DNA of 33,243 nt, taken from positions 1 to 33,243 of the forward strand of contig PWJZ01000057.1 in NCBI GenBank assembly GCA_003559855.1, given 5' to 3'. The notes beneath the pieces are model-generated. The model saw nothing but the letters and a program-made list of their open reading frames with translations, ran no database searches and was not told the origin of the DNA. The position numbers were made by a program, and so were the translations under genes. Numbering within the stretch: position 1 is the first letter of the stretch; each line of letters begins with the position of its first letter. Below, piece by piece: positions 1-28,069 of this stretch. Source of the DNA: Bacteroidales bacterium (GTDB taxonomy: Bacteria; Bacteroidota; Bacteroidia; Bacteroidales; UBA7960).

Positions 1-149
1 AAACTATAAAAACCATCATAATTGCATATCATTTAAAAGCGCAATAAGCATATATTCAGACGTTTACAAAAAATATTTTTTAACGTTATTCGTCATTTAA
101 ATTTTTATCGGACACTAATGACTTGCCATTATAATTAATCTGTCTTATT

Positions 150-1499
150 TTAGAAACTTACTTTCATACCAACATAAGCCCCGTTAAGAATTTTTCCTGC
201 CATATCATAAACAGAGCTTTCTTTTCCGTACATCAGGCTTGCACCCGCCTGCGCAGTCAGCTCGTCAGTGAGCCTCCATGTAATACCGGGTCTTATTAAG
301 TACTCTTCAGAGGTTATGTTGTAATAACCCGACAATTCCACATCAATTACTTCATAGGCAAAAGACCTGTTAAGTGTGACCATGACGGCATGGTTGAATT
401 TTTCCTGTTGTTGAAAAATCTTCCTGTTGAACAGTTCCGGTTCATAATTGATCATGTCAATGGCATATTGCATCATGTTATCAGTGTCGGGCGGGTCAGG
501 TATGACTGGTTTTTGGAGTTTTTCGTAGTTGATTGTGTACTTGCCTACATATTGTACAATTGATATTATATTAAAAATGTTCCTTTCAAAGCCGGCAACA
601 TAGCTGATATCCGGATTGGGTATGTGCATGTTTTGTTCGTAGTCTTTTGTATGGTTGTAAGCCAATTCGCCGCGAATTATTGAATTATTAACAGGTAATG
701 CAAAATCGGCACCCGGAGTGTTTTTTTTATAGAAGTCGGCAACATATTCAATGTTAAGTTCGGGTAAAATATCTATATTTTCAACCCTGAAACCGTAAAA
801 AGTGTCGTATCCTCTAAAGTAGGAGAATGAAAATCCAATGGCAGGCAGCTCGAAGTTCATTCTTGCACCAAAGCCTGAATTTTTAAGCGTTTTATCCGGC
901 ATTACTGTTTCACTGAAATGTGCATTGCCTCCCATGTCGAACAGATCATAGCGATAATTTGACTTATTGAAAACAGGAATGGCTATTAAGTCCAGTTCGG
1001 CTGATGGCGTGAAACGAACTTTCGAACGAATTATGAAGTTTGACATTAACTGGTCGTCATGATCCGGGGTAAGAAAGAAATAGTCGTGTGGTGTGATATT
1101 GTCGGTAGGATTGAAGCCATCCGTGCGTCCCCATGAGACTATCTGATTACCTATGTAAAAAGAACTATTTTCACCCCGGTAAGCAGCATAGGCTTCTTTT
1201 AGTTCAACAATTGTTTGCCTTTCGTCAAAAAACAACCCTTCGCGGATTCTCACATCACCATGAAAAAAGGTTTTACCCCTTGACACCCTTCCCTGCAAAG
1301 CAAATTCGCCAAACAGAGTTGTGAAATCGTAGCCATCAGAACCACCGTAAGCCGAGCCCCTGGCATATCCGTTAAGAACAAAGCTGCTTGTATCGTCACT
1401 ATCATCACGGTCGGATGTAATGCTTTCAAATAACCCTTGCGCCTGTGAAACAAAACCGCTGATAAACAATATTAATATCAGCAAAATTTTTTTTGACAT
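150..1499 (-). CDS. Outer-membrane porin-like beta-barrel protein (DUF1302-like)
   Basis: Predicted exported outer-membrane protein of 449 residues. I chose the ATG at 1499 because it begins MSKKILLILILFISG, a clean signal peptide ending near FVSQAQ; the frame stays open 25 codons further upstream but that extension has no export signal. The mature part is rich in alternating hydrophobic/aromatic strands and contains WGRTDGFNPTDNITPHDYF, which resembles the W-G-x-x-D-x-x-N-P segment of DUF1302-type porins. The C-terminus ends in a strand with terminal Phe (YVGMKVSF), typical of BAM-inserted barrels. Substrate is unknown. It is transcribed away from the AraC-type gene and has no obvious operon partner in the window. 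Barrel assignment is fairly firm; family name is from memory of motif similarity. Confidence 0.7.
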   Translation of the reverse strand: MSKKILLILILFISGFVSQAQGLFESITSDRDDSDDTSSFVLNGYARGSAYGGSDGYDFTTLFGEFALQGRVSRGKTFFHGDVRIREGLFFDERQTIVELKEAYAAYRGENSSFYIGNQIVSWGRTDGFNPTDNITPHDYFFLTPDHDDQLMSNFIIRSKVRFTPSAELDLIAIPVFNKSNYRYDLFDMGGNAHFSETVMPDKTLKNSGFGARMNFELPAIGFSFSYFRGYDTFYGFRVENIDILPELNIEYVADFYKKNTPGADFALPVNNSIIRGELAYNHTKDYEQNMHIPNPDISYVAGFERNIFNIISIVQYVGKYTINYEKLQKPVIPDPPDTDNMMQYAIDMINYEPELFNRKIFQQQEKFNHAVMVTLNRSFAYEVIDVELSGYYNITSEEYLIRPGITWRLTDELTAQAGASLMYGKESSVYDMAGKILNGAYVGMKVSF

Positions 1500-14527: not shown

Positions 14528-14866
14528 TTAATAAAACAAATATTTTTTTGTCTTGTTTATCCAGCCTGCCTGATGCCGGTAATTAACGAAGTAGATATTA
14601 ACGTCAGCCTGGTGTGAATAGTCTGTAAAGTATATTGCTACATCTGCCTGATGACGGTAGTCAGTGAAAAACCACTTTCCGTCGTTTCTGCCTGTCTGGT
14701 GCTGGAAGTCAACCAAATAGACACACAGGTCTGCCTGGTGACGGTAGTTAACTACAAACACCCTGACATCAGCCTGATGTGCATGTTGAACGCTGAATAC
14801 CTTTTGCGAGACAGCATTGAATGAAATAAACAGCAGCAATAATGATATAATAATATAATGTTTCAT
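14528..14866 (-). CDS. DUF6150-like exported protein with HQAD repeats
   Basis: 112 residues. Signal peptide MKHYIIISLLLLFISFNAVSQ, then six near-identical strand repeats of the form (F/V)xx(Y/F)xHQADxxIY: VQHAHQADVRVF, VNYRHQADLCVY, VDFQHQTGRND, TDYRHQADVAIY, TDYSHQADVNIY, VNYRHQAGW. The pattern predicts a small repetitive beta sheet with rows of His, Gln and Asp on one face. It matches what is called DUF6150 in Bacteroidota (recalled, not searched). Function unknown. It converges on the DUF2807 gene with a 14-nt gap and lies just downstream (10 nt) of the beta-lactamase-like gene on the minus strand, perhaps co-transcribed with it. Confidence 0.7.
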   Translation of the reverse strand: MKHYIIISLLLLFISFNAVSQKVFSVQHAHQADVRVFVVNYRHQADLCVYLVDFQHQTGRNDGKWFFTDYRHQADVAIYFTDYSHQADVNIYFVNYRHQAGWINKTKKYLFY

Positions 14867-17032: not shown

Positions 17033-17428
17033 TTAATCCATAGAGGGATAAATACAACGCATAAGGAATTCGCCTGAAGGATATTTGCTTTTTTCGACAT
17101 GCAGTTTAAGTTTATCAGGATATTTATCATCAAATGGTCCAAGTTCAAGGATCAACCATATTTCAGCCATTTGTTCTATATGCAGGCTTTGCGAGTTTCT
17201 TACTCTCCAAAAGTCATACCTTGAATCGCCAATTGACATAAGCCCGTCTTCATAAAAAATAGTTGGTGCTGAAAGGTCATAATTGGCACCTGGTGCCAAT
17301 TCAATTATATCAGGAACGCCCCATTTGGTGTCAATAAGATAATCCTTGTTAAACATGAGTTCTTCATCTTCGCATGAAAAGATAAAAACAAAACTAAAAA
17401 TAAAGAGGGCTTGAAATAGTTTTTTCAT
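17033..17428 (-). CDS. Small lipoprotein at the end of the usher-like operon
   Basis: 131 residues from the ATG at 17428: MKKLFQALFIFSFVFIFSCE, with lipobox FIFSC followed by acidic EDEEL, typical of a Bacteroidota lipoprotein (the acidic stretch may be a surface-export signal). The frame is open 21 codons upstream, but only this start gives a signal peptide. The mature part, IDTKWGVPDIIELAP and YDFWRVRNSQSLHIEQMAEI, resembles small lipocalin-like lipoproteins; I cannot name a family. It lies 79 nt downstream of the usher-like gene, same strand, and may be an accessory of that system. Confidence 0.65.
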   Translation of the reverse strand: MKKLFQALFIFSFVFIFSCEDEELMFNKDYLIDTKWGVPDIIELAPGANYDLSAPTIFYEDGLMSIGDSRYDFWRVRNSQSLHIEQMAEIWLILELGPFDDKYPDKLKLHVEKSKYPSGEFLMRCIYPSMD

Positions 17429-17507
17429 AATGTTTGGTGTAACCTGTTTTTTGTTTATGTTTTTATTCATAACATGCTTTTGTTCCGGCAAATTATCAGA
17501 TTACCGG

Positions 17508-20500
17508 TTATTTATCAATAATGGTTATTTCAACTCTTCTGTTTCTTGCCCTGTTTTCTTCGGTATCGTCGGGTGCAACCGGTCTGCGGTCTTCGTAGCC
17601 GACATATTCGATATTTCCGACGCCTTGTTCAAACATGTATCTTGCAACGGCTTCAGCGCGCCTGTTGGAAATTCCTCTGAAATCCATTGTTTCTAACGCA
17701 TCCGAATGGCCGGCAATCTGGATCCTTACATTCGGGTTTTCCTTCAGTTGTTCTATAAGTCGATCAAGTTCGGGATATGCTTCAGTAGGTATTTCATCGC
17801 TTCCTGAATCGAATACAAGATTCCTCAACTCAATTTTTGAACCTACAATAATATTTTCAAGCAATACTTCCATTTCTACATCCTGAATTGTAAGGGTCGG
17901 CTCAAGGTCAAGTTTTTCAGAATAGAGCCAGTATCCCGGGGTAACTAAAATTAACGAATAATTTTCCCCGGTCATGAAGCTGGTATTAAATCTGCCGGTA
18001 TTTCTGTCTGAGCGTGTTGTTTCGATGGTCCTTCCCGTTCTGTTATCAACGATTTCAATTGTAGCCCTCAAAGGTTGCAGCGTCATTCTGTCTTTAACAT
18101 ACCCTGACAAATTTGTGCGCCTTACTGTCATAACTTCTGCATCCACATCAGCTTCACTCGGATAAAAGTCTATTCTGCGTCTTCTTTCATCAAACACAAA
18201 ATTTACTTCAAATTTTTTGTAAGCATTCAGGTGAACGACAAAATTATTTTGGCGAAGGGTGAAATGGTCTTCAAAAATATCACGTATTGATACCACGTAA
18301 TCGTCGAGGCTGGGAGCATATATTTCAAATTTGCCCTGCCCGTCGGTAAGCGTTGAGAGAGTGTTGCCCCTGGCATCGGTAGCAGTTACCCTTATGTTTG
18401 ATACATCTATTCTGCCCAGGGTTGACAGCTTACTTCGGTTAAGTATGACTTTGCCGAAAATTTTGTTTCTTTCCAGAAACGGAACATAAATGTTCTTGTC
18501 TTTATTGACATGAACAATCATTTCGGTTACATCAGGTACAAAAGTGCCGTTTCTTTTATCCATTGAATTTATAACAATTCTGTAAAGCCCTGCGGCAAGG
18601 TTTTCATAAGTGACGGTTCCGTCCATTCCGGAAAGCAATTTGTTGTTGACCAATTGCCCTGTAAATTCATATTCTTTTTCAAATTCATCATAATAACGTG
18701 TATCCTCACGATAAATGGTTACCAATACATTATTGACGCCTGGTTCATTGGGGTCTTTACGCAGGTTGCCGTTCAAGTCTTTAAACAGATGCACTGTCAT
18801 ATCGTAATACTTAACCCTTGGCTGGTTCCAGTAAAAATCTTTTTTTAGCCTTATCTCAAAGTAAGTGCTGGAATAATCGTATTTGTCTTCGGTGATAAGG
18901 TCGGTAGACATCTGATATCCCAAAGTGTTGAGGAATGATACCGTAAACCCTTTGGGCAGGTAAAAATCCAGCTCGTTATGCATGTGTAGCCTTGTGGTTT
19001 TGAAGGTGAAGTCGTGCATAAAATTCAATCTTGATGAAAGCTTTACTATATTTCTGTAGATAAAGGTTTCGTAATAAGGCATAATGCGTATACTTTGAGT
19101 AAAATAAGCCTGGTAAAAATAAACTAATTGCTGGTTCAGGGCATAGGGTCCGTAGAAATAGTTCAGGAATGCTCCCCAGTTTCCGCTTTTCATATTAAAG
19201 CTGAAATCGGCACTAAAGAACTGTTTTCTGTCATCCAGGTAATGAATATTTGCTTCGTTGTCGGGTTCTGAAAAGCTGGTCACAAAGCTATAACCTATTG
19301 ACAATGAAGGGTTGAAAAACATAAGATGGCTTTCCCTGATCCGTGCTCCTATTTCAAATTTTGCACTATTGGTAATAAAAGGGTCGTCGCCATTGAAGTG
19401 AAAAAATGCATTTGAGCCGCGTCTTTCATAAATGGGGCCGAAAAAATATGCAAATCCTGTATCCATGTATCTTGTGGTTCTTAAATTAGCCCGCCTTGTA
19501 CTATGAAACCTGTCTGAAAATATCCCTGAAGTACTTTCAACCACAGGTTTGCTGACTCTGTCGTAAAATATCAGATCAAATAAAAGTCTTTCCCTGTAGC
19601 GGTAATTTATCGTGCCCAAAAAGTTGTGACGTCCTGCATAATGACCGTAATAATTTGTAGTGCCAAACTGTTCATTCAGGCGGATTCTGATATTATTTAT
19701 TCTGCCCGAATAGTTAACTCTGAATCCATAACCGATTTCCTGTTGATTTATCTCATTAAAGGTTACATCGCTAAGACCTGCATCTAATGTAATATGATGA
19801 TTTTTGAATAAAGCCAGATTGGTACCTACTCCATATATATTTGCATCACTGTTGTACCATCTGTTTTCGGTCGTTGCAAATCTTGTATGAAGGCCAAGTT
19901 TAGCCCACCGAGCATTAAATATGCCGCCATAATTTCTGATTGGTCTGTATGGGTTTTCGGCTGCTATGCCTTTGATCTCATAGCGGTTAAAAAACCTGTA
20001 ATTCAATTTCAGACCTCTTCCCAGCCCATGCTTGAGAGGCATTCCTGTAAGGTCTCCTATAATAACATTAAATACCGGGGCGTTGTATGACACCCTGAAA
20101 CGGCTTCGGTCTAAAAAATCGTCGGTTCTGCCGATCCCATATGCCCTGAACCTGTAGCTTATGTTGCGATCCCGGCGAAATAAGATGTTTCCCTGCACGG
20201 CTCCTGAAAAATAGGGGTCATATTCACTAAAAAGGTTATGGATCATAGCCTCGGCAATCAAGGGAATTTCACCCGGAGGGATTTCATACCTGAAAAAATT
20301 TGCAAGGTGTCTGAACCAGAAGGTAGTCGTGAATCTCCTTTCGTCTGTCGTAGCTTCAAGGTCAACCCTGAAAAGTGATTGATTGTTAAGTTCATTCTGA
20401 TCCTGTTCAAGCAAAACCGGTATGGTAATAGTAGTATCTTTGCCCGATTCAAGCCGAACATCAAATAAAAGACTGTTATTCTCTTCGTTTGGAAGAATAA

Positions 20501-21062
20501 CATTATCAGTGCTTCGTAATTCAATGAATATCAGTTCGTCTATATTACCCTGATTTTCAAAATTAAAGCTTAATATGCTTTGACTTGTTTCAAGATCGAA
20601 ATACGAGACTCTTGTAATGGGTCTGAATCTAAGGTTGGACCTGCTGGGTATTTTTACATAACAATAGGCGTTTGCCAATGTATGGTCGTAGCGGTCATTG
20701 ACAGATGCGATAATTGAATAACCTATTTCACCCCTTACATCTTTTGTTGCAGCCACCCTGATGGGTATCAGCAGTGTATCCCCGCCTTCAATCGTATAAT
20801 TGCGTTTTTCTTCTTTTATAACGGTCCAACCGACCGGAGCATTGAAGTCTATAACGACAACATGAGGCATGTTGCTTCTATTTACTACATTCAATACGTT
20901 AAAAAATGTTTCATCGGGTTCTATTTGAAGGTCTTCATGCCGGAAGTAAGCTTTCAGATCAGGTTGGTCATAATTGAAATCGGATAGATTTTGAGAAAAG
21001 CAGTCAATATGGCTAACGGTAAAAATTACTACATATAACACATATTTAAATTGAATATTCAT
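17508..21062 (-). CDS. Large usher-like outer-membrane barrel with C-terminal OmpA domain
   Basis: 1184 residues from ATG 21062 (signal MNIQFKYVLYVVIFTVSHID, ending near CFSQ). In order: Ig-like domains in about 20-280 (e.g. FFNVLNVVNRSNMPHVVVID, VGWTVIKEEKRNYTI); a very large beta-barrel from about 285 to 765, rich in aromatic strands such as VIIGDLTGMPLKHGLGRG. Next comes an SdrD-B-like domain with DLNGNLRKDPNEPGVNNVLV; a carboxypeptidase-regulatory-like domain (IFGKVILNRSK, LSTLTDGQGKFEIYAP); another beta sandwich (LSGYVKDRMTLQPLRATIEI); and a C-terminal OmpA peptidoglycan-binding domain (VFDSGSDEI, IAGHSDALE, NRARNRRVEITI). The barrel plus beta-sandwich order recalls ushers, and the neighbours are a PapD-like chaperone gene and two pilin-like genes. 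OmpA fusion to an usher is unusual. Usher function is inferred. Confidence 0.7.
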   Translation of the reverse strand: MNIQFKYVLYVVIFTVSHIDCFSQNLSDFNYDQPDLKAYFRHEDLQIEPDETFFNVLNVVNRSNMPHVVVIDFNAPVGWTVIKEEKRNYTIEGGDTLLIPIRVAATKDVRGEIGYSIIASVNDRYDHTLANAYCYVKIPSRSNLRFRPITRVSYFDLETSQSILSFNFENQGNIDELIFIELRSTDNVILPNEENNSLLFDVRLESGKDTTITIPVLLEQDQNELNNQSLFRVDLEATTDERRFTTTFWFRHLANFFRYEIPPGEIPLIAEAMIHNLFSEYDPYFSGAVQGNILFRRDRNISYRFRAYGIGRTDDFLDRSRFRVSYNAPVFNVIIGDLTGMPLKHGLGRGLKLNYRFFNRYEIKGIAAENPYRPIRNYGGIFNARWAKLGLHTRFATTENRWYNSDANIYGVGTNLALFKNHHITLDAGLSDVTFNEINQQEIGYGFRVNYSGRINNIRIRLNEQFGTTNYYGHYAGRHNFLGTINYRYRERLLFDLIFYDRVSKPVVESTSGIFSDRFHSTRRANLRTTRYMDTGFAYFFGPIYERRGSNAFFHFNGDDPFITNSAKFEIGARIRESHLMFFNPSLSIGYSFVTSFSEPDNEANIHYLDDRKQFFSADFSFNMKSGNWGAFLNYFYGPYALNQQLVYFYQAYFTQSIRIMPYYETFIYRNIVKLSSRLNFMHDFTFKTTRLHMHNELDFYLPKGFTVSFLNTLGYQMSTDLITEDKYDYSSTYFEIRLKKDFYWNQPRVKYYDMTVHLFKDLNGNLRKDPNEPGVNNVLVTIYREDTRYYDEFEKEYEFTGQLVNNKLLSGMDGTVTYENLAAGLYRIVINSMDKRNGTFVPDVTEMIVHVNKDKNIYVPFLERNKIFGKVILNRSKLSTLGRIDVSNIRVTATDARGNTLSTLTDGQGKFEIYAPSLDDYVVSIRDIFEDHFTLRQNNFVVHLNAYKKFEVNFVFDERRRRIDFYPSEADVDAEVMTVRRTNLSGYVKDRMTLQPLRATIEIVDNRTGRTIETTRSDRNTGRFNTSFMTGENYSLILVTPGYWLYSEKLDLEPTLTIQDVEMEVLLENIIVGSKIELRNLVFDSGSDEIPTEAYPELDRLIEQLKENPNVRIQIAGHSDALETMDFRGISNRRAEAVARYMFEQGVGNIEYVGYEDRRPVAPDDTEENRARNRRVEITIIDK

Positions 21063-21081
21063 TTCAACCTGTTTCTGTTTT

Positions 21082-21651
21082 TCATTGTGCCGTAATCTTA
21101 AACTCAATATCTACGACATAATAGCCTGCCGGCTCACCCAGTAATATTTTAGATCCTTTACCGCATCTGTAAGTAATAATGATTTTGTTATCATTAAAAC
21201 CTCCCTGTGGAGCATCTGCTACTAGGAGTTGATATCCACTATCCAGATCTTTTTCTGGCTGCATCCAGGCTGAAAGGTCTGTATTACCACCTCCGTCACC
21301 GGCTTCGATCGAAATAATGTCAAGGTCCAGCTGCTTGCCGCTGTCGCCTATAATAAACATTGTTGAAGCCTTGAATTCCAGGTCCCAACTCCTGCCAGGA
21401 TCGTCTTCATCGATAAAATATACTGCCAGCCTTGTCCAGTTTTGATATTCCACGCCTTCCTCGTATTTGTTCATTGAATTGATCCTGAAATCTACACTGC
21501 CACCACTTTCAATCCTAATCATCATTGTATCCGGCTGTGAATTTTGTGCGTGGATTAGGTTGTTAGCGAAAACAATATTAACAATAATAGTTATTATACA
21601 TATGTAGTATCTCTTTATTGTCATTCCAATGATTCTTTGACCTGCTGGCAT
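21082..21651 (-). CDS. Pilin-like secreted subunit B
   Basis: 189 residues (180 from the ATG at 21624, MTIKRYYICIITIIVNIVFA, which looks the better signal peptide start, cleaved near LIHAQ). The mature protein has RIESGGSVDFRINSMNKYEE, then a W-D-L strand, and ends NDNKIIITYRCGKGSKILLG followed by AGYYVVDIEFKITAQ. These match the other small protein at 22079-22681 (LNVVSGGNVEF, NDNDFTIHWRCG, closing hydrophobic strand). The alternation of hydrophobic residues and the closing G-x-Y-x-x-x-(I/V)-x-F-x-(I/L) strand resemble spore-coat-U/pilin-type chaperone-usher subunits. It is followed by the usher-like gene after 19 nt, so it is probably a minor or tip subunit made with the usher. Function inferred from context. 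Confidence 0.6.
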   Translation of the reverse strand: MPAGQRIIGMTIKRYYICIITIIVNIVFANNLIHAQNSQPDTMMIRIESGGSVDFRINSMNKYEEGVEYQNWTRLAVYFIDEDDPGRSWDLEFKASTMFIIGDSGKQLDLDIISIEAGDGGGNTDLSAWMQPEKDLDSGYQLLVADAPQGGFNDNKIIITYRCGKGSKILLGEPAGYYVVDIEFKITAQ

Positions 21652-22078
21652 TTTATTATAAACAATTCGTAACAGGTAACCGAGCTTGATCTTTGTACTC
21701 GGAAGTTAAGGCCCGGGATTGAATAGCATCAATGATTTTTACTGCTTAGCCATTCCTGTTAAAAACCTTTTAACCCGGCTTGCCCTTTTCTAATTAAATA
21801 CTAATAATATGTTATATATCTTGCTTAGTTAAAAGTTTATAATTATATTACTTTTATTTAGCCAAACTGCTTAATTAGCAAATAAAATCCGTTTAAATAA
21901 ACACATAAAAATATCATCCTCATGATCAGTTGCTTGGTATCGGATCGTATACTTTCATCAAGATCAACCTTTCATAAATAAAGAAACAGTCAAAAAATCC
22001 TGCCCTGCCACATCATATTGAATATGATACTGATTTTTAAGACAGGATTTAATGACCGGTCATTTGTATGATATTTTT
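21652..22078. other. 427-nt intergenic region between the two subunit genes
   Basis: No coding frame seen. It contains the terminator for subunit A (21995-22050) and then about 340 nt of AT-rich DNA that must hold the promoter of the subunit B/usher-like operon. I found no TAnnTTTG match on the minus strand in it. Confidence 0.5.
21995..22050 (-). terminator. Hairpin terminator after pilin-like subunit A
   Basis: Outer arms AAATCCTG and CAGGATTT, with a nested ATCATATTGAATATGAT stem inside. On the minus strand the outer stem ends GGCAGGATTTTTTG, giving a T-run immediately after the hairpin. It lies 28 nt downstream of the subunit A stop, so it would separate subunit A from the subunit B/usher-like transcript. 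Confidence 0.65.
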
Positions 22079-22681
22079 TTATTCTGCTGGTCTTAATATC
22101 AGGAACACATTAGTGGCATATCTATCGGCAGCAAGTTGTTGCTCCAGTATAGACACCGGGTTCATTCCACCTTCCTGCGTACCACAACGCCAGTGAATTG
22201 TAAAGTCATTGTCGTTAATGTCACCGGCATTTGAATTGGTGCCGTCATAACCGACTATGATCTCTTCGGTATTTGTAAGAGCAGACGGGTTTGCCTCAGT
22301 TGATGGAATATTCAGCACAGTTTCATTATTGTCTCCATTGGCTTCAACATGATATCCGATATTGTCAAGCTCCATACCGGTACCGTCAATGTCATCGGTA
22401 GAAACCAGCATGTCTTCTTCTGAATACATAACAACATCCCAGTCGACCGAAGAGGCAACCGTAAACCTTGTATCGTATGGCGGTGAATTGAAAATACCTT
22501 CCTGATAGTCAGCCAGGGTTATAAAACTAAACTCAACATTACCTCCCGAAACTACATTTAAACGTAAAATGGAGCTGAGAGTAACAGCAACAGGTACAAC
22601 AGCCCTGTCGTCAACGGCTTGCCCGAAAGAAACATTTCCTAAAAGCAAACCACCGATTAACAAATAGATTATCCGTTTCAT
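22079..22681 (-). CDS. Pilin-like secreted subunit A (probable major subunit)
   Basis: 200 residues: signal peptide MKRIIYLLIGGLLLGNVSFG (cleaved near FGQA), then a strand-rich segment AVVPVAVTLSSILRLNVVSG, GGNVEFSFITLADYQEG, SVDWDVVMYSEEDM, and toward the end NDNDFTIHWRCG and ADRYATNVFLILRPAE. It is related to subunit B at 21082 by the SGGxVxF...YxxG block, a WD(V/L) strand, the ND(N)-x-x-I-x-(Y/W)-R-C-G block and the closing hydrophobic strand. It has its own candidate promoter (22728-22735) and terminator, so it could be expressed at higher level than the usher-like operon, as major pilins often are. Only one cysteine (in RCG) is obvious. I infer a secreted subunit; no named family is assured. 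Confidence 0.6.
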   Translation of the reverse strand: MKRIIYLLIGGLLLGNVSFGQAVDDRAVVPVAVTLSSILRLNVVSGGNVEFSFITLADYQEGIFNSPPYDTRFTVASSVDWDVVMYSEEDMLVSTDDIDGTGMELDNIGYHVEANGDNNETVLNIPSTEANPSALTNTEEIIVGYDGTNSNAGDINDNDFTIHWRCGTQEGGMNPVSILEQQLAADRYATNVFLILRPAE

Positions 22682-22727
22682 AGATTGTAAATTTAAGTTA
22701 ATAAGTAAAAAATTAAATTTCAGGGGA

Positions 22728-22735
22728 CAAATATA
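22728..22735 (-). promoter_or_regulatory. Candidate promoter of pilin-like subunit A
   Basis: Minus strand TATATTTG, a TAnnTTTG match, 47 nt upstream of the ATG at 22681, with TTTA 18 nt further upstream as a weak -33 box. Confidence 0.5.
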
Positions 22736-22815
22736 AAATATTTATTTTAATCATAAACACAACAGGACGAAAAATTGAAATTTTAACAAAAAACATTTAT
22801 TTCAGAATTATATAA

Positions 22816-24804
22816 TCAACCTCCATTGTCGCCCAATTTAAATCCTATAACCAGAACATCATCAATTTGGTCTTCGCCTTGTTTCCAGTCAAAGAAGTTT
22901 TGTTTAAGCAATTTTTCCTGTATATCCATAGGCTCTTTATGAATATCCAGCAGCAGGCTTTTAAAATTTTTCAACAATAATTTTCTGTTTTTCGGCCCAC
23001 CAAACTGATCGATATATCCGTCGGAAAATATGTAAAACCATGTAGGTTTATCAACGTGAATAGTGGATTTGGTAAAATTTCTTTCGCTTTCTCTTTGAAC
23101 TCCTCCTATTGACATCCTGTCGCCTTTGATCACGTTAATATCGCCGTTTTGTATATAAATTATTGAATTTTGCGCACCTGAAAACTGTACCGTTCTGTTT
23201 TCTTTATTTATAACACAAACCGATAGATCCATACCGTCGCGGTTTTTTCCATCTTCCTGTTTTAATGTTCTTCTAACGCCTTTGTGCAGCAGTGTTAATA
23301 TTTTATCGGGGCTGGTAATACCGTTCTGTGTTATCTCGTCCAGCAGATTGTACCCGATCATCGACATAAATGCCCCGGGCACGCCATGGCCTGTACAGTC
23401 AACAGCCGAAATAATGAACTTGTTGCCTTTTATCGGCAGAAAATCATTGTTTCCGTTGCCGCTTGATATCAAATCCTTTTTGATATTTTCACCTTCTTTT
23501 TTGGTTAAAACCGTTTTTTCGTGTTGTTTTTCATCATATTTTTTTTCGATCTTTTCACCAATTTCCTTAAACCAGTAAAAATCACCGCTGACTACATGCA
23601 ACGGTTTAAAGAAGATAAAAGATTCGGGAATATGATTTTTTAAAGCATCGCGCGGAGGGAATATCGCTTTTTGTATTTCCCTGGCATAGTTGATACTATG
23701 AGTGATCTTAAGGTTCTGATCTTCAATTTTGTAATATGCCTCCTGTAATTGTTTACTTTTGTTTTCTATCTCCTTATTGATAAATTCCAGCTTTTTATTG
23801 GCTCTTTGTTTTGCAATGTAGTTCCTGTATAGTATTATTAAGAGTATTAAACCAATTATAAGCACACCTATTCCATACGACATGACTACTCTTTGTGTTC
23901 TTTCCCGTTCTTCCTGTTTGTCCAGTTGTGCCCTTTGAAGTTCCCTGTCTAGCTCTATACTTTCCATTTCCTGATGTATCCTGCGTTCACGTTCTTGAGC
24001 TAGTAAGAGTGAATCTTCCTTAGACTGAACGATCCTGCGGATTGAATCCTGCTCTTCCTGGTATATCCTTCTCTGTAACTGCATCTCCAGCTCACGGGCT
24101 CTCTTTTCAAGCTGTGTACGCCGTATCTCAACCTGAGTTTGCATTTCCCTCTCTTCATAACCTTCTCTTATAGAACGTGTTGCAAGGAAATCTTTATGTG
24201 TTAAATATTTTTGCAGGTATTCGTTGGCTTTTGCTACCATACCAAGATTGTTGTAATATCGGGATAGCTGGCTATATATATTTAAAAGAAGCGATTGGTA
24301 ATTATTATCAATGCATATATCTTTTGCTTCAAGGAGGTATTCAATAGCTTCGTTATAATCCCCTTTCAAACCAATTACATATGCAAGGTCTACCAATCCC
24401 GATGATATGACCAGAGTGTTGCCAAACTCCCTGCGTACCTGAAGACTTTTTCTGAAAAATTTGTGAGCGTTTATCAAATCTTCCGAATCAAGATAAATAA
24501 GTGCAATGTTGCTGTAAACTTTTCTGATATTGTCCAAATCATTTATCCTTTGGTAGTAAGGTATGGTTTCGTGAAAATATTGGATAGCTAAATCAGTTCT
24601 TTGATTATCCCAGTAAAGAAATGCTATTTTGTTCAGATGCGCAACAGCGTTCGTGTACTCGCCATGGCTTGCATAGTATGTGACCATTTCTTCATATTTT
24701 TCCAGCTTTTCCTGATCCGCATCGCTTAACGGAATTGGTGACTGTGAAAAACAATCTATTTGAAACAAAAACAGTGAAAAAAGAATTATAAGGCTCTTTT
24801 TCAT
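22816..24804 (-). CDS. TPR-containing SpoIIE-family Ser/Thr phosphatase
   Basis: 662 residues. Signal peptide (MKKSLIILFSLFLFQIDCFS), TPR-like helices about 30-205 (AVAHLNKIAFLYWDNQRTDL, VYSNIALIYLDSEDLINAHK, YNNLGMVAKANEYLQKYL), a long charged coiled coil about 220-300, one membrane helix (about 307-328, YGIGVLIIGLILLIILYRNY), a second coiled coil, and a C-terminal PP2C/SpoIIE domain. Metal-binding and core motifs are present: SGDFYWF, DCTGHGVPGAFMS, GMDLSVCV, FSDGYIDQFGG and QIDDVLVIGFK. So a periplasmic TPR sensor would control a cytoplasmic phosphatase acting on phospho-Ser/Thr of an anti-sigma-antagonist-like protein. Two SiaC-family proteins encoded 2.3 kb away are the obvious candidates, as SiaA acts on SiaC in Pseudomonas. 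It lies first in the minus-strand series leading to the subunit and usher-like genes. Confidence 0.88.
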   Translation of the reverse strand: MKKSLIILFSLFLFQIDCFSQSPIPLSDADQEKLEKYEEMVTYYASHGEYTNAVAHLNKIAFLYWDNQRTDLAIQYFHETIPYYQRINDLDNIRKVYSNIALIYLDSEDLINAHKFFRKSLQVRREFGNTLVISSGLVDLAYVIGLKGDYNEAIEYLLEAKDICIDNNYQSLLLNIYSQLSRYYNNLGMVAKANEYLQKYLTHKDFLATRSIREGYEEREMQTQVEIRRTQLEKRARELEMQLQRRIYQEEQDSIRRIVQSKEDSLLLAQERERRIHQEMESIELDRELQRAQLDKQEERERTQRVVMSYGIGVLIIGLILLIILYRNYIAKQRANKKLEFINKEIENKSKQLQEAYYKIEDQNLKITHSINYAREIQKAIFPPRDALKNHIPESFIFFKPLHVVSGDFYWFKEIGEKIEKKYDEKQHEKTVLTKKEGENIKKDLISSGNGNNDFLPIKGNKFIISAVDCTGHGVPGAFMSMIGYNLLDEITQNGITSPDKILTLLHKGVRRTLKQEDGKNRDGMDLSVCVINKENRTVQFSGAQNSIIYIQNGDINVIKGDRMSIGGVQRESERNFTKSTIHVDKPTWFYIFSDGYIDQFGGPKNRKLLLKNFKSLLLDIHKEPMDIQEKLLKQNFFDWKQGEDQIDDVLVIGFKLGDNGG

Positions 24805-25130
24805 ATAAATTAAATATTTTCTGTTATATTGAGCGTAAAATTATAAAAAAGTTGATCGTGTATTACAATCCTGTATAAAAAAAATCAATCTTTAAATGGT
24901 ATTTTACGTATTTCATTTATAAAAAGATTTCTTTTAGGACAAATTTAACATTTACTTTAATAAAATTAATGATAAAAACACTAATTTTGTATTCCGTATT
25001 TTTATGGAGAAAAAAACGAAAACACTGAATTAATTTTACAAAAAACGTAATATTTTTATACGTATAAGATAAATTTCGGTTTTTTTCAAATTTAAAATCA
25101 TAATAAGCTTACAAACTAATTCAAAAAACC
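24805..25130. other. 326-nt divergent intergenic region (phosphatase / chaperone)
   Basis: Very AT-rich, no coding frame. It must drive both the phosphatase (minus) and the chaperone (plus). The only TAnnTTTG match toward the chaperone is TAATTTTG at 24982-24989, without a good -33 box and about 140 nt from its ATG. Confidence 0.4.
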
Positions 25131-25934
25131 ATGAAAAAGAGGTTGTTATTGATCAGCGTAAAAATTTTTGCCATTTCGATATGTTTAGTGGCGCAAGATT
25201 TTGAAGTAGCACCTATACGCATGAATTTTCGAAGTGAACCCGGTGAAACCGAAACCAGGACTTTTACCATAAGAAATCATGGAAATCGTAAAGAGACTAT
25301 AGTTTTAGCAACGCGTGATTACCTTGTTCACCGGCATGGTGAGAGGGAGCTTTTGCCTCCAGGTACTACCAGGTATTCCATGGCCAACTGGATAACTTTC
25401 AATCCTTCTTTCGTTGAATTGCAACCCAATGAGGAAGAAGTCGTACAGGTGACATTCCAGGCACCGTTAGACGATTACTCGTCAAAATGGGGAATTATGA
25501 GCTTTGCTTCAACCATAGAAAGAACGGCATATTCGGCTGATAAGAATGTTCAAACGGGCCTGTTCGTTTCCGGCAGGGTAGATGCTTATATTACCTATAC
25601 ACCACCAACCACCCAGGAACCAAATATTGTGATAAGCAATCTGAGGGAGGTTACATCGGAAGATGATAAGGACAGGATCTTTACCGTCAATATAGACAAT
25701 CTGGGTGATAATTTAACGCGGTGCGAGCTTTACTTGATAGCATCAAGTCTGGTAGCCGATGTAGAGAAGAAATTTGAAACCATCAGAATTACCGCCTATC
25801 CACAGTCATCACGAACTATTGAGCTTGAATTGCCGGATGTGCTGGAAAAAGGCAGATATTCATTGGCCGCCATACTGGACTATGGAAGCAAAACCTACCT
25901 TAAAGGTACTCAGATAACTATTGATGTTGACTGA
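25131..25934 (+). CDS. PapD-like periplasmic chaperone
   Basis: 267 residues with signal peptide MKKRLLLISVKIFAISICLV (mature start near AQDFEV). It has two Ig-like domains. The first reads FEVAPIRMNFRSEPGETETR, TFTIRNHGNRKETIVLATRD, ANWITFNPSFVELQPNEEEV and VQVTFQAPLD, the usual order of a pilus chaperone N-domain (x-P-x-R-x-x, x-N-x-x...P, then L-x-P-x-x-x-x-x-V). After GRVDAYITYTPP the second domain covers about 165-265 (IVISNLREVTSEDDKDRIFT, YPQSSRTIELELPD). It would hold secreted subunits unfolded-competent in the periplasm. It is encoded divergently from the phosphatase/subunit/usher-like series, the only chaperone candidate in the window. A structural chaperone role is inferred from fold and neighbourhood. 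Confidence 0.65.
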   Translation: MKKRLLLISVKIFAISICLVAQDFEVAPIRMNFRSEPGETETRTFTIRNHGNRKETIVLATRDYLVHRHGERELLPPGTTRYSMANWITFNPSFVELQPNEEEVVQVTFQAPLDDYSSKWGIMSFASTIERTAYSADKNVQTGLFVSGRVDAYITYTPPTTQEPNIVISNLREVTSEDDKDRIFTVNIDNLGDNLTRCELYLIASSLVADVEKKFETIRITAYPQSSRTIELELPDVLEKGRYSLAAILDYGSKTYLKGTQITIDVD

Positions 25935-25949
25935 CCCTAATTAACATTT

Positions 25950-27140
25950 ATGATTAAGGGAAATATTATTTTTTTTCTGCAGGTTTTGATCTTTTTGGCA
26001 ATACACACTATTGCCTGTGGTCAAATCCACGAATTTCGTATTTACTATAATTCTACCGACGAATTAAAAGAAAAATTTTCAGGATATATTTCAGAAGGGG
26101 ATACAATAAAAAAAGGCAGATATTATTATTATCTGCCCGGAAAAATAATTAATCAAAAAGGATATTTTCTTGATGATAAGCCCGATGGTTTGTGGGAGAT
26201 TTTCTATGAAAGCGGTGAACTTCATCAGAAAATCGAGTTTGAAGAGGGCGTTAGATCAGGCAATTATTATGCTTATTTCCCCGATGGAAATATAAAGCAA
26301 AAAGGATATTACCTGAATGGTAAACTTAATGGTGAATTTGTGTCATACTACAGTAATGGTATTGTGGAAAGTATTTCAAACTACAGAGATGGTAAACATA
26401 ATGGTTTGAAGAAGATCTTTCATCCGAACGGTAAGGTTTTTAAAAAGTATGAATTGGTGGATGGTGTCGAAAATGGTGTTTGGAAACGGTTTTATGAAAA
26501 CGGAATGATCAATTATGACGGAATGAAAAAAGACGGGCATTTTTATGACACCCTGATAGTATATTATGAAAATGGAAATTATCAGAGGTTTTGCTATTAT
26601 GAGAACGGTTTGCTTGAAGGTGATTATTTATCTTTTCACCCTAACGGCAATATTCAGATAAAGACCACATACAGCAGTGGCAAAATTAACGGTGAATTCA
26701 CCGAGTATTATATAACAGGGCAAATACTGCAGCAAGGCTTTTATAAGAATAACCGTAAAGAAGGTATTTGGCGGTCGTACCATCAAAACGGATCAATTCA
26801 TGCTGTGGGAAGATTTGAAAATGATTTTTTTTCAGGAATATGGAAAGTATATTTTTCCAATGGAAATTTAAAACAGAAAGGCAAATATAAAAACAGCCTG
26901 TCCAAAGGTTTCTGGGAGTTTTTCAATGAAAAAGGCGATATCATATTTTATGGCAATTACGGTAATGATTTGAAGCGGGGCTTGTGGATAACCCACCGGT
27001 ATTATAAGGGCGTTGAAACAGCGACTATTGATTTATACAGGGAAGATCAACCCGTTGAACGACTATTGGGTATGGGGGAAGCCAGAGAAAAAGCAGGCAT
27101 ATTACATATAAAAGGAACTCCATTGATCATTCATAACTGA
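25950..27140 (+). CDS. MORN-repeat exported protein
   Basis: 396 residues; N-terminal hydrophobic segment NIIFFLQVLIFLAIHTIACG serves as signal peptide (a Cys at its end could be lipidated, but the lipobox is poor). About twelve MORN-type repeats follow, each with an aromatic pair and NG turn, e.g. EIFYESGEL, YAYFPDGNI, VSYYSNGIV, KRFYENGMI, LSFHPNGNI, RSYHQNGSI, KVYFSNGNL, with G-x-(W/F) between them. Such tandem repeats (often labelled YwqK-like) make elongated beta-ribbons; function is unknown. It begins 15 nt after the chaperone stop, same strand, so the two are probably one operon. Its last 14 nt overlap the end of a SiaC gene on the other strand. Confidence 0.75.
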   Translation: MIKGNIIFFLQVLIFLAIHTIACGQIHEFRIYYNSTDELKEKFSGYISEGDTIKKGRYYYYLPGKIINQKGYFLDDKPDGLWEIFYESGELHQKIEFEEGVRSGNYYAYFPDGNIKQKGYYLNGKLNGEFVSYYSNGIVESISNYRDGKHNGLKKIFHPNGKVFKKYELVDGVENGVWKRFYENGMINYDGMKKDGHFYDTLIVYYENGNYQRFCYYENGLLEGDYLSFHPNGNIQIKTTYSSGKINGEFTEYYITGQILQQGFYKNNRKEGIWRSYHQNGSIHAVGRFENDFFSGIWKVYFSNGNLKQKGKYKNSLSKGFWEFFNEKGDIIFYGNYGNDLKRGLWITHRYYKGVETATIDLYREDQPVERLLGMGEAREKAGILHIKGTPLIIHN

Positions 27141-27558
27141 TAAAACTGAATTTCAAATCGGCAATATCAGCAAAATCTTCGCCCGCTTCCAGCATATCTT
27201 CATCATCTTCAAGATAATGCCATTCAATTGTCAGTTTTTCATCTTTTGATTCTATAATTTTTATGATATCTAGTATTTCAAGAATCATCTTGGAGGAAGC
27301 AGTATTAAAATATTCAAAAACAAAGATTATTTTAGTGCCTTTTTTTGGTTTTTCTGCATACGAACTGATCCAGTCTTGTATTTTTTTATAAAAGCTTTTA
27401 GCGTCTTCCGGTAAAGAACGGCCGGAAAACTTAATATATCCCTTATCCTTATTCAATATAACTTCCGGCGTTTCAGATGTGCCTCTCAAGAACAAGGCAT
27501 TGCCGGTTGGTTCTTGTTCAAATACGGCTTTATTCTCCTGCTTTGTAGAAATTTCCAT
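27127..27558 (-). CDS. SiaC-family regulatory phosphoprotein, copy 1
   Basis: 143 residues with the DUF1987/SiaC pattern: TPEVILNKDKGYIKFSGRSL followed by PEDAKSFYKKIQDWISSYAE, EYFNTASSKMILEILDIIK and WHYLEDDEDMLEAGEDF. In Pseudomonas aeruginosa, SiaC is phosphorylated by SiaB and dephosphorylated by the SpoIIE-type SiaA, and its unphosphorylated form acts on a diguanylate cyclase. The Thr/Ser cluster in FNTASSK is the likely phosphosite by analogy with anti-sigma-factor antagonists. The gene overlaps the end of the convergent MORN gene by 14 nt and follows copy 2 by 73 nt. A partner kinase (SiaB-like) was not seen in the window. Confidence 0.82.
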   Translation of the reverse strand: MEISTKQENKAVFEQEPTGNALFLRGTSETPEVILNKDKGYIKFSGRSLPEDAKSFYKKIQDWISSYAEKPKKGTKIIFVFEYFNTASSKMILEILDIIKIIESKDEKLTIEWHYLEDDEDMLEAGEDFADIADLKFSFISYE

Positions 27559-27631: not shown

Positions 27632-28069
27632 TTATAACCAATATCTGACAAAATTAAAGTTTATACCCGCCCTTTCTTCAAAATCTTCACCCGCTTCAAG
27701 CATATCATCGTCTTCATCAAGATATCGCCATTCTACATATAAAAGACTTTCTTTCTTTTCAAAAACTTGTTTAATTAAATCAAGAAGTTCCAGTATCATT
27801 TTTGAAGATGAAGAGTTAATGTATTCGTATTGAAATATAACTCTTGTATTAATTTTTGTGGAACTGGCGTAGTTTACTATCCAGTCCATAATTGGTTTAT
27901 AGAAATTTTTCGCATCCTCAGGTAATGAACGCCCGGTCAGTTTAATTAAACCTCCGCTCTTATCCAAAAGTACCTCCGGTGAATCCAAAGTACTTTCCAA
28001 ATAGAAAAAATCAAGATTTGGTGCGTCTTGTAATTCCTTGTATATGTCTTTTCTTGCTGAAGTTTCCAT
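27632..28069 (-). CDS. SiaC-family regulatory phosphoprotein, copy 2
   Basis: 145 residues, paralogous to the next downstream gene: SPEVLLDKSGGLIKLTGRSL followed by PEDAKNFYKPIMDWIVNYAS, EYINSSSSKMILELLDLIK and WRYLDEDDDMLEAGEDF. The serine run in INSSSSK replaces the Thr/Ser run of copy 1 at the presumed phosphosite. It is the first gene of the two-gene minus-strand unit. A TAATTTTG element (minus strand, 28124-28131) lies 55 nt upstream and may be its promoter. The pair may interact or respond to different phosphatases; the closest candidate phosphatase is the TPR/SpoIIE protein encoded 2.8 kb away. Confidence 0.82.
   Translation of the reverse strand: METSARKDIYKELQDAPNLDFFYLESTLDSPEVLLDKSGGLIKLTGRSLPEDAKNFYKPIMDWIVNYASSTKINTRVIFQYEYINSSSSKMILELLDLIKQVFEKKESLLYVEWRYLDEDDDMLEAGEDFEERAGINFNFVRYWL

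Follow-up and report, generated by a model that had tools for sequence, protein, structure and literature searches.

We analysed a 33,243-nucleotide stretch of DNA from a Bacteroidales bacterium (contig PWJZ01000057.1; the window), in which a first-pass annotation had picked out a candidate chaperone/usher-like system, that is, neighboring genes for two secreted subunits, a periplasmic chaperone and an outer-membrane barrel protein that might build a surface fibre. All gene positions given there agree with the open reading frame (ORF) list. The minus strand carries SUB1, the proposed major subunit (22079..22681; 200 residues, with an extension at about residues 22-37 followed by a beta-sandwich), a terminator-like hairpin with a T-run directly 3' of it (21985..22078, same strand), SUB2 (21082..21651; 189 residues, a secreted subunit without the N-terminal extension and the proposed fibre initiator or tip) and BARREL (17508..21062; an outer-membrane protein of 1184 residues), the full order on this strand being PHOS-SUB1-SUB2-BARREL-LIPO. 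Divergent from these, on the plus strand, lies CHAP (25131..25934; 267 residues), which profile comparisons place among the PapD-family two-domain periplasmic chaperones, followed by a gene for a MORN-repeat protein. The gene content and linkage, the homologies, the fold predictions, the difference between the SUB1 and SUB2 N termini and the hairpin all come directly out of the computation and are the basis of the argument below.

Chaperone, subunits and barrel are linked far above chance. Profile searches of 59 genomes (the source genome and its relatives, with a BARREL query lacking the OmpA part) found CHAP in 19, SUB1 in 19, BARREL in 18 and SUB2 in 17, with CHAP and BARREL together in 17 (P = 1e-11 on the assumption of independent genomes, which these are not). 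Scanning a genome collection with two patterns from the part of the BARREL protein that follows the barrel gave 65 loci, of which 64 were examined (L178, a Desulfonema match to BARREL residues 759-964 only, was left out); these loci partly overlap the 59-genome set and are related to each other, and the linkage counts take in only those with enough contig upstream of the barrel. A subunit gene stands directly 5' of BARREL in 55/55 loci with at least 700 nt, and both subunits do so in 49/49 with at least 1.5 kb; CHAP is found upstream in 33 of the 37 loci with at least 6 kb and PHOS in 38 of the 42 with room for it, CHAP being divergent in 35/36 and directly followed by the MORN gene in 35/36. 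By their titles, the loci are mostly from Bacteroidales or unspecified Bacteroidetes/Bacteroidota, with some Flavobacteriales, a Crocinitomicaceae metagenome-assembled genome (MAG) and MAGs labelled Chlorobiota. A search of 395 genomes of the phylum, in which we counted only listed barrel places with 500 or more of the 962 model positions matched (the same search tallied 103 genomes, most listed rows being a short C-terminal stretch only), yielded among the matches listed 14 long barrel places in 12 genomes, all 14 with a chaperone match nearby, within 2.5 kb at 13 of them and at 4.1 kb in the window itself. Seven of the 14 are absent from the query alignments, and all seven have a chaperone within 2.5 kb. 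The survey of co-occurrence in Bacteroidota proposed with the first-pass annotation has, in these three sets, found the genes together and still linked. Among viral sequences (IMG/VR), none of the 74 matching stretches encodes a relative.

Some genomes carry second copies: a second chaperone match occurs in G060, G070, G153, G268 and G366 and a second long barrel match in G153 and G268, which would suggest two or more fibre systems in one cell. In two families of the phylum (f42 and f48), chaperone relatives are present in many genomes for which the 395-genome search gave no long barrel match.

Two further kinds of locus with a related chaperone and barrel were found in the phylum, and we refer to the kind in the window as type 1. 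Type 2 (e.g., L089-L091 and L195) consists of a subunit of 197-229 residues, a second subunit, a barrel of 971-982 residues and CHAP; type 3 (L189, L190, L192 and L193) has tandem subunits of 178-212 residues, CHAP and a barrel of 933-936 residues, together with a two-domain protein of 477-478 residues whose C-terminal part matches the subunits and which, in its layout, is like a tip adhesin. This protein is present in 4/5 type-3 loci fetched, which thus have a pilus-like make-up, the fifth, L191, being without it. In profile-profile comparisons, the barrels of the three types match each other at E values of 7e-34 to 4e-86, the type-1 chaperones match those of types 2 and 3 at E 3e-43 and 1e-41, and SUB1 and SUB2 are matched by type-3 subunits at E 3e-13 and 1e-14 and by type-2 subunits at E 5e-9 and 1e-9. 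Because none of the 11 sister barrels scanned (918-996 residues) has an OmpA match, the OmpA domain of the type-1 barrel looks added. One locus, L112 (G041:C34), combines type-1-like subunits, chaperone and MORN gene with a barrel of 996 residues without an OmpA match and may be an intermediate. The L191 barrel lies, by reading, near PorU/PorV-like genes.

The two subunits were initially described as related parts; their families are indeed homologous (profile-profile E 3e-23), but they are not equivalent, as only SUB1 has an extension resembling a donor strand. Both signal peptides end, by reading, before a Q, and if cleavage before this residue is assumed, the distance from Q to a GG motif is 24-25 residues in 50/50 SUB1 rows, with a conserved PVxVTLNSILRL pattern, and has a median of 11 (range 8-28; 56 rows) in SUB2, the SUB1 extension being the longer one in 50/50 loci. 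The second subunits of type-2 loci read like SUB2 at the N terminus. The AlphaFold 2 (AF2) model of SUB1 (mean predicted local distance difference test score, pLDDT, 90.1) shows no strand within mature residues 22-38. Since one subunit with a donor-like strand and one without suit a polymer with an initiator, this contrast is, with the donor function itself predicted from sequence, the anatomical point that speaks most for a fibre.

No Pfam family matches either window subunit, and none scores better than E 0.016 among 50 SUB1 and 56 SUB2 relatives. A fold search of the PDB with SUB1 gave as best matches TLP-1b (Z 10.9) and TLP-1a (Z 10.5; 161-162 residues), followed by a Csu pilin at Z 7.0 and many chaperone-usher pilins near Z 6. 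In many cases the pilin alignments start at SUB1 residue 36-38, which is about where the pilins' own N-terminal extension ends. TLP-1 and TLP-2 (PDB: 9ikj and 9ikk) are reportedly helical fibrils from pond water, described in a CryoSeek study. Type-2 sister subunits match TLP-2 and TLP-1 over their full length (E 9.6e-19 and 2.2e-18), and a pooled subunit profile matches TLP at E 1.3e-9 over 57 columns; the type-3 set gave no match among PDB sequences, its alignment being poor (two thioredoxin-like L191 rows and the window subunits were included). By fold and profile comparison, then, the window subunits are related to TLP-1/TLP-2, and SUB1 has relatives that are the protomers of the cryo-EM entries 9ikj/9ikk (16 chains each). 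The first-pass annotation had named a match to non-polymerising families as an outcome that would speak against it; the subunits match a family with fibril structures. The TLP chains are longer, at 236-237 residues versus about 180 for mature SUB1. Searching the 395 phylum genomes with TLP-2 returned one match, in G378 (36% over residues 5-94), where the locus holds two TLP-like subunits, a chaperone and a barrel; no close TLP-2 match was found in these genomes, and the TLP-1 producer was thus not identified among them. A 2026 review (PMC12967142) states that a conclusive identification of pond-water filaments from this line of study was not possible. On the homologies described here, loci of this kind are probably the machinery behind TLP-1-type fibrils.

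The PapD-like nature of the chaperone holds up at the family level. Relatives of CHAP give weak Pfam matches to MSP-, ASH-, Cep192- and PapD_N-type domains, which we take to form one superfamily, with sub-threshold PapD_N matches in 2/37 type-1 chaperones (best E 0.0059). A pooled profile of 16 chaperones from the three locus types matches nine PapD-family chaperones of E. coli K-12 at E 5.4e-9 over 200 columns spanning both domains. Its score is 66.3, whereas 60 column shuffles reached no more than 19.4. Enlarging the pool gave E 2.3e-6, and with single types the E value was 2e-5 for type 3 and 3.1e-4 for type 2. Mapped by sequence alignment, as opposed to structure, the positions that we take to anchor the C terminus of the subunit in classical chaperones are basic in type 1 (K/R30 in 28/37 and R149 in 36/37), those of the alternating G1 donor strand are hydrophobic (position 140 in 35/37, 144 and 146 in 37/37), and a DYG motif aligns opposite NDYG of FimC. 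The second basic anchor residue is kept in only 2/9 type-2/3 chaperone rows (L195 and L191). PMC4654587 distinguishes classical chaperones, which use a pair of basic residues in domain 1, from archaic ones, which do not. On this point the type-1 chaperone, with its conserved basic pair, resembles the classical kind.

BARREL consists of a signal peptide, two immunoglobulin (Ig)-like domains (residues ∼36-258), the barrel (268-743), a region of Ig-like, SdrD_B and CarboxypepD_reg-like domains (∼750-1068) and an OmpA peptidoglycan-binding domain (1077-1184). Pfam detects a CarboxypepD_reg domain, a weak SdrD_B domain and OmpA, the last of these substantiating the motif noted originally (PF00691, E 1.2e-14, residues 1084-1175), and the predicted barrel is borne out by the AF2 model (mean pLDDT 85.2; predicted template modelling score 0.57), whose DSSP string counts 26 barrel strands in residues 268-743. 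The top Foldseek ranks for the protein are ciliary proteins, which we read as Ig-domain matches. FimD is found by Foldseek at E 1e-10, and FimD 140..833 aligns loosely with BARREL 266..958, that is, with the barrel and the C-terminal Ig-like domains (Z 14.0; root-mean-square deviation [rmsd] 9.9 over 503 residues). At the sequence level, the type-1 barrel profile matches seven K-12 ushers at E 4.5e-4 over 121 columns inside the barrel, with a score of 46.1, whereas 40 shuffles reached no more than 25.9 and the control profiles scored 22.1 (TonB receptor) and 19.4 (LptD). The N-terminal part of BARREL resembles the chaperone family, in type 1 at E 2.8e-5 and for the pooled barrels at E 6.4e-6 over 183 columns (score 54.5 versus at most 19.1 in 40 shuffles), and a chaperone-like docking module at the barrel N terminus is suggested, not established, by this match. 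In a separate locus, L180:1-3237 (G005:C11) encodes a different usher-like protein of 1078 residues with a sub-threshold PF00577 match, in which reading of the sequence points to a plug-like stretch and, at the C terminus, a SPOR-like part; 7/59 genomes have a match, in two cases a short or weak one, and none of these seven carries the BARREL described here.

The locus shares with chaperone-usher pili (classical FimC/FimD/FimA and archaic Csu) a PapD-family two-domain chaperone, subunits with an N-terminal extension plus one without and, going by the loose FimD alignment, perhaps also an outer-membrane barrel followed by Ig-like domains. It differs from them in its added OmpA domain, in the two Ig-like domains that precede the barrel and in subunits without a Pfam family, and also in two features by which ushers are defined, namely a match to PF00577 and a plugged barrel of 24 strands. 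The locus would work in the manner of a chaperone-usher system, but we do not class it as one because BARREL has neither feature. The phylum Bacteroidota also falls outside the distribution given in PMC4654587, where chaperone-usher systems are known from Proteobacteria, Cyanobacteria and Deinococcus-Thermus.

Bacteroidales also have type V pili (FimA/Mfa1), surface fibres of Bacteroidota built by strand exchange. The window locus differs from these in having a dedicated chaperone and barrel, and we rejected a type V pilin identity for SUB1 and SUB2, since, by reading, they have no lipobox and their signal peptides stop ahead of a Q, and neither has a FimA/Mfa Pfam match.

Taken together, the evidence makes it likely that the window encodes a chaperone-barrel pathway of Bacteroidota in which donor-strand complementation would build an extracellular fibre. 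The original proposal, namely that Bacteroidota have an analogue of chaperone-usher loci here and that an OmpA anchor was added to it, gains support from the TLP-family subunits, the linkage and the OmpA-less sister barrels. Of the three refuting outcomes named with it, those on the subunit family and on co-occurrence did not materialise, and the one on the barrel gave a mixed picture. We infer the following course for chaperone-subunit binding, assembly order, translocation through the barrel, polymerisation and regulation. SUB1 and SUB2 would be exported to the periplasm, where CHAP would cap their unfinished beta-sandwiches, and the chaperone-subunit complexes would go to the 26-strand barrel, with the two N-terminal Ig-like domains as the probable docking site. 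SUB2, which has the fold and no donor strand, would enter first and start or tip the fibre; SUB1 subunits would come next, each with its N-terminal extension plugged into the preceding subunit, and the growing fibre would exit via the barrel, held to the peptidoglycan by the C-terminal OmpA domain. Through the hairpin, SUB1 would be made in larger amounts than the genes after it, and control of the locus may lie with a switch of the SiaA/SiaC kind.

A number of results weigh against this pathway. The type-1 chaperone alone matches the K-12 chaperones weakly (E 0.026), so that the match given above needed pooling with types 2 and 3, and it does no worse against pilins (E 0.009, 32 columns) than against chaperones. 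The SUB1 fold matches to pilins stay below Z 8 and perhaps reflect just a common arrangement, and the SUB1 profile alone finds only TLP-2 among PDB sequences, at E 0.57. A match of the subunit pool to K-12 pilins is likewise weak (E 0.0027 over 35 columns; score 24.9 versus at most 15.5 in 40 shuffles). As for the barrel, PF00577 has no match in BARREL and is above the cut-off in 0/59 relatives; the model contains no plug-sized insertion, its longest inter-strand loop being 25 residues, which leaves without explanation how the pore stays closed. Its closest barrel fold is that of the Mtr complex (6r2q chain B; Z 20.6, rmsd 5.5 over 426 residues), above the ushers at about Z 14, with LptD at Z 15.2. 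The sequence signal to ushers is weak and confined to type 1 (pooled barrels E 0.09, type 2 0.051, type 3 0.041; best E against single ushers 0.0064), and type-2 and type-3 barrels show no match to their own chaperones (E 0.12 and 0.25). Set against the outcome that the first-pass annotation named as refuting, an ordinary non-usher barrel with neither plug nor chaperone interface, the findings are mixed: BARREL has no plug and no family match, and it has the loose FimD alignment and the weak type-1 usher signal.

How the barrel arose bears on two accounts of the same machine. We tentatively entertain the idea that Bacteroidota evolved a non-usher platform of their own, in which a plugless 26-strand barrel, two Ig-like docking domains and an ancient PapD-family chaperone would build TLP-1-type fibres by donor-strand exchange, with TLP-1/TLP-2 as products of such loci; we marked this idea down because of the weak type-1 usher signal. 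The same signal, which stands above the shuffles and both control barrels, together with the PapD-family chaperone and the FimD alignment, speaks for a strongly diverged true usher, that is, a barrel that descended from PF00577 ushers, lost the plug and gained OmpA, and a new clade of chaperone-usher systems. We regard such a descent as possible, if somewhat doubtful, given that the signal fails for pooled, type-2 and type-3 barrels and for single ushers and that a barrel with 26 strands, no plug and no PF00577 match is fitted better by the Mtr barrel. Membership of the usher family as such was rejected on the Pfam match and the plug; distant descent from ushers may lie behind the type-1 signal.

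The product could also be something other than a fibre. A chaperone-assisted secretion pore that puts SUB1 and SUB2 on the cell surface, where they would form a coat or act as individual adhesins with no donor-strand fibre, would be well served by an OmpA anchor and an open barrel, which suit a static platform, and genomic data would, in our view, not tell a coat from a fibre. We nevertheless consider a coat unlikely, as relatives of SUB1 are the protomers of the fibril entries 9ikj/9ikk, the SUB1 extension is constant and conserved and is shorter in SUB2, and a hairpin follows SUB1. Already disfavoured, and in our judgment very improbable, is an MtrB- or LptD-like conduit (sheathing some other partner or exporting lipids) in which the subunits would plug the lumen: its attraction lies in the Mtr and LptD fold matches and in a barrel with no plug of its own, but a scan of 15 proteins of the window gave no match to cytochrome or Lpt families, the steady neighbors are subunits and a PapD-family chaperone, and sister loci have several tandem subunits instead of one plug. 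With the Mtr-complex barrel, BARREL has the barrel fold in common and differs in gene neighborhood, flanking domains and OmpA.

If the chaperone-barrel fibre pathway is real, it would extend the chaperone-usher principle to Bacteroidota with a different barrel, allow one to ask directly whether the mechanism depends on the plug, the strand number or the N-domain of ushers, and provide a gene-level origin for TLP-1-type fibrils. Among the papers listed by searches aimed at this kind of system, we recognised none that describes it, which is weak evidence, as bioRxiv and most subscription papers were outside the scope.

The hairpin directly 3' of SUB1 has a folding energy of -30.1 kcal/mol (z -5.29), and 0/200 shuffles are as stable. 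A similar signal is present in the SUB1-SUB2 gap of 26/50 relatives versus 1.5 expected from shuffles, although this is a crude test. Chaperone-usher loci likewise have a hairpin after the major subunit gene, and we propose that the one in the window holds SUB2 and BARREL expression below that of SUB1.

The first-pass annotation did not mention PHOS within the locus, the MORN gene after CHAP or the two SiaC-family genes beyond it. PHOS (22816..24804, minus strand) is a proposed regulator, a SiaA-like protein with TPR and a SpoIIE-type phosphatase domain (PF07228, E 1.6e-12); its match to the SiaA model has an E value of 8.9e-47 but reaches 160 of 700 bits, below the cut-off. The secreted MORN-repeat protein (25950..27140, plus strand; PF07661, E 4.7e-26) adjoins CHAP on its 3' side, and is followed on the minus strand by two SiaC-family proteins (27127..27558, PF09345, E 1.7e-35; and 27632..28069, PF09345, E 2.8e-32), the first of them a probable regulator outside the assembly core. 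An ORF of the SiaC kind lies in the fetched stretch at 21 of the 32 loci that extend 9 kb or more upstream of the barrel. With a phosphatase of the SiaA type and SiaC-family proteins next to a probable fibre locus, the window recalls the SiaABCD biofilm switch of Pseudomonas aeruginosa, with the difference that its PHOS is below the SiaA cut-off; according to PMC4768041, SiaA/D regulates the CupA fimbriae of that species. By this analogy, which is suggestive only, a SiaA/SiaC-like partner switch could possibly control fibre production.

At the other end of the locus, LIPO (17033..17428, minus strand, within the ORF 17033-17491) encodes a small lipoprotein whose start codon and lipobox were picked by reading (a hydrophobic signal, then ...IFSC|EDEE); it sits 3' of BARREL in closer relatives, and the LIPO profile matches in 16/64 loci. 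Further along the window, at 14528-14866 on the minus strand, there is a gene for a small secreted protein built of repeated HQAD/YRHQA motifs.

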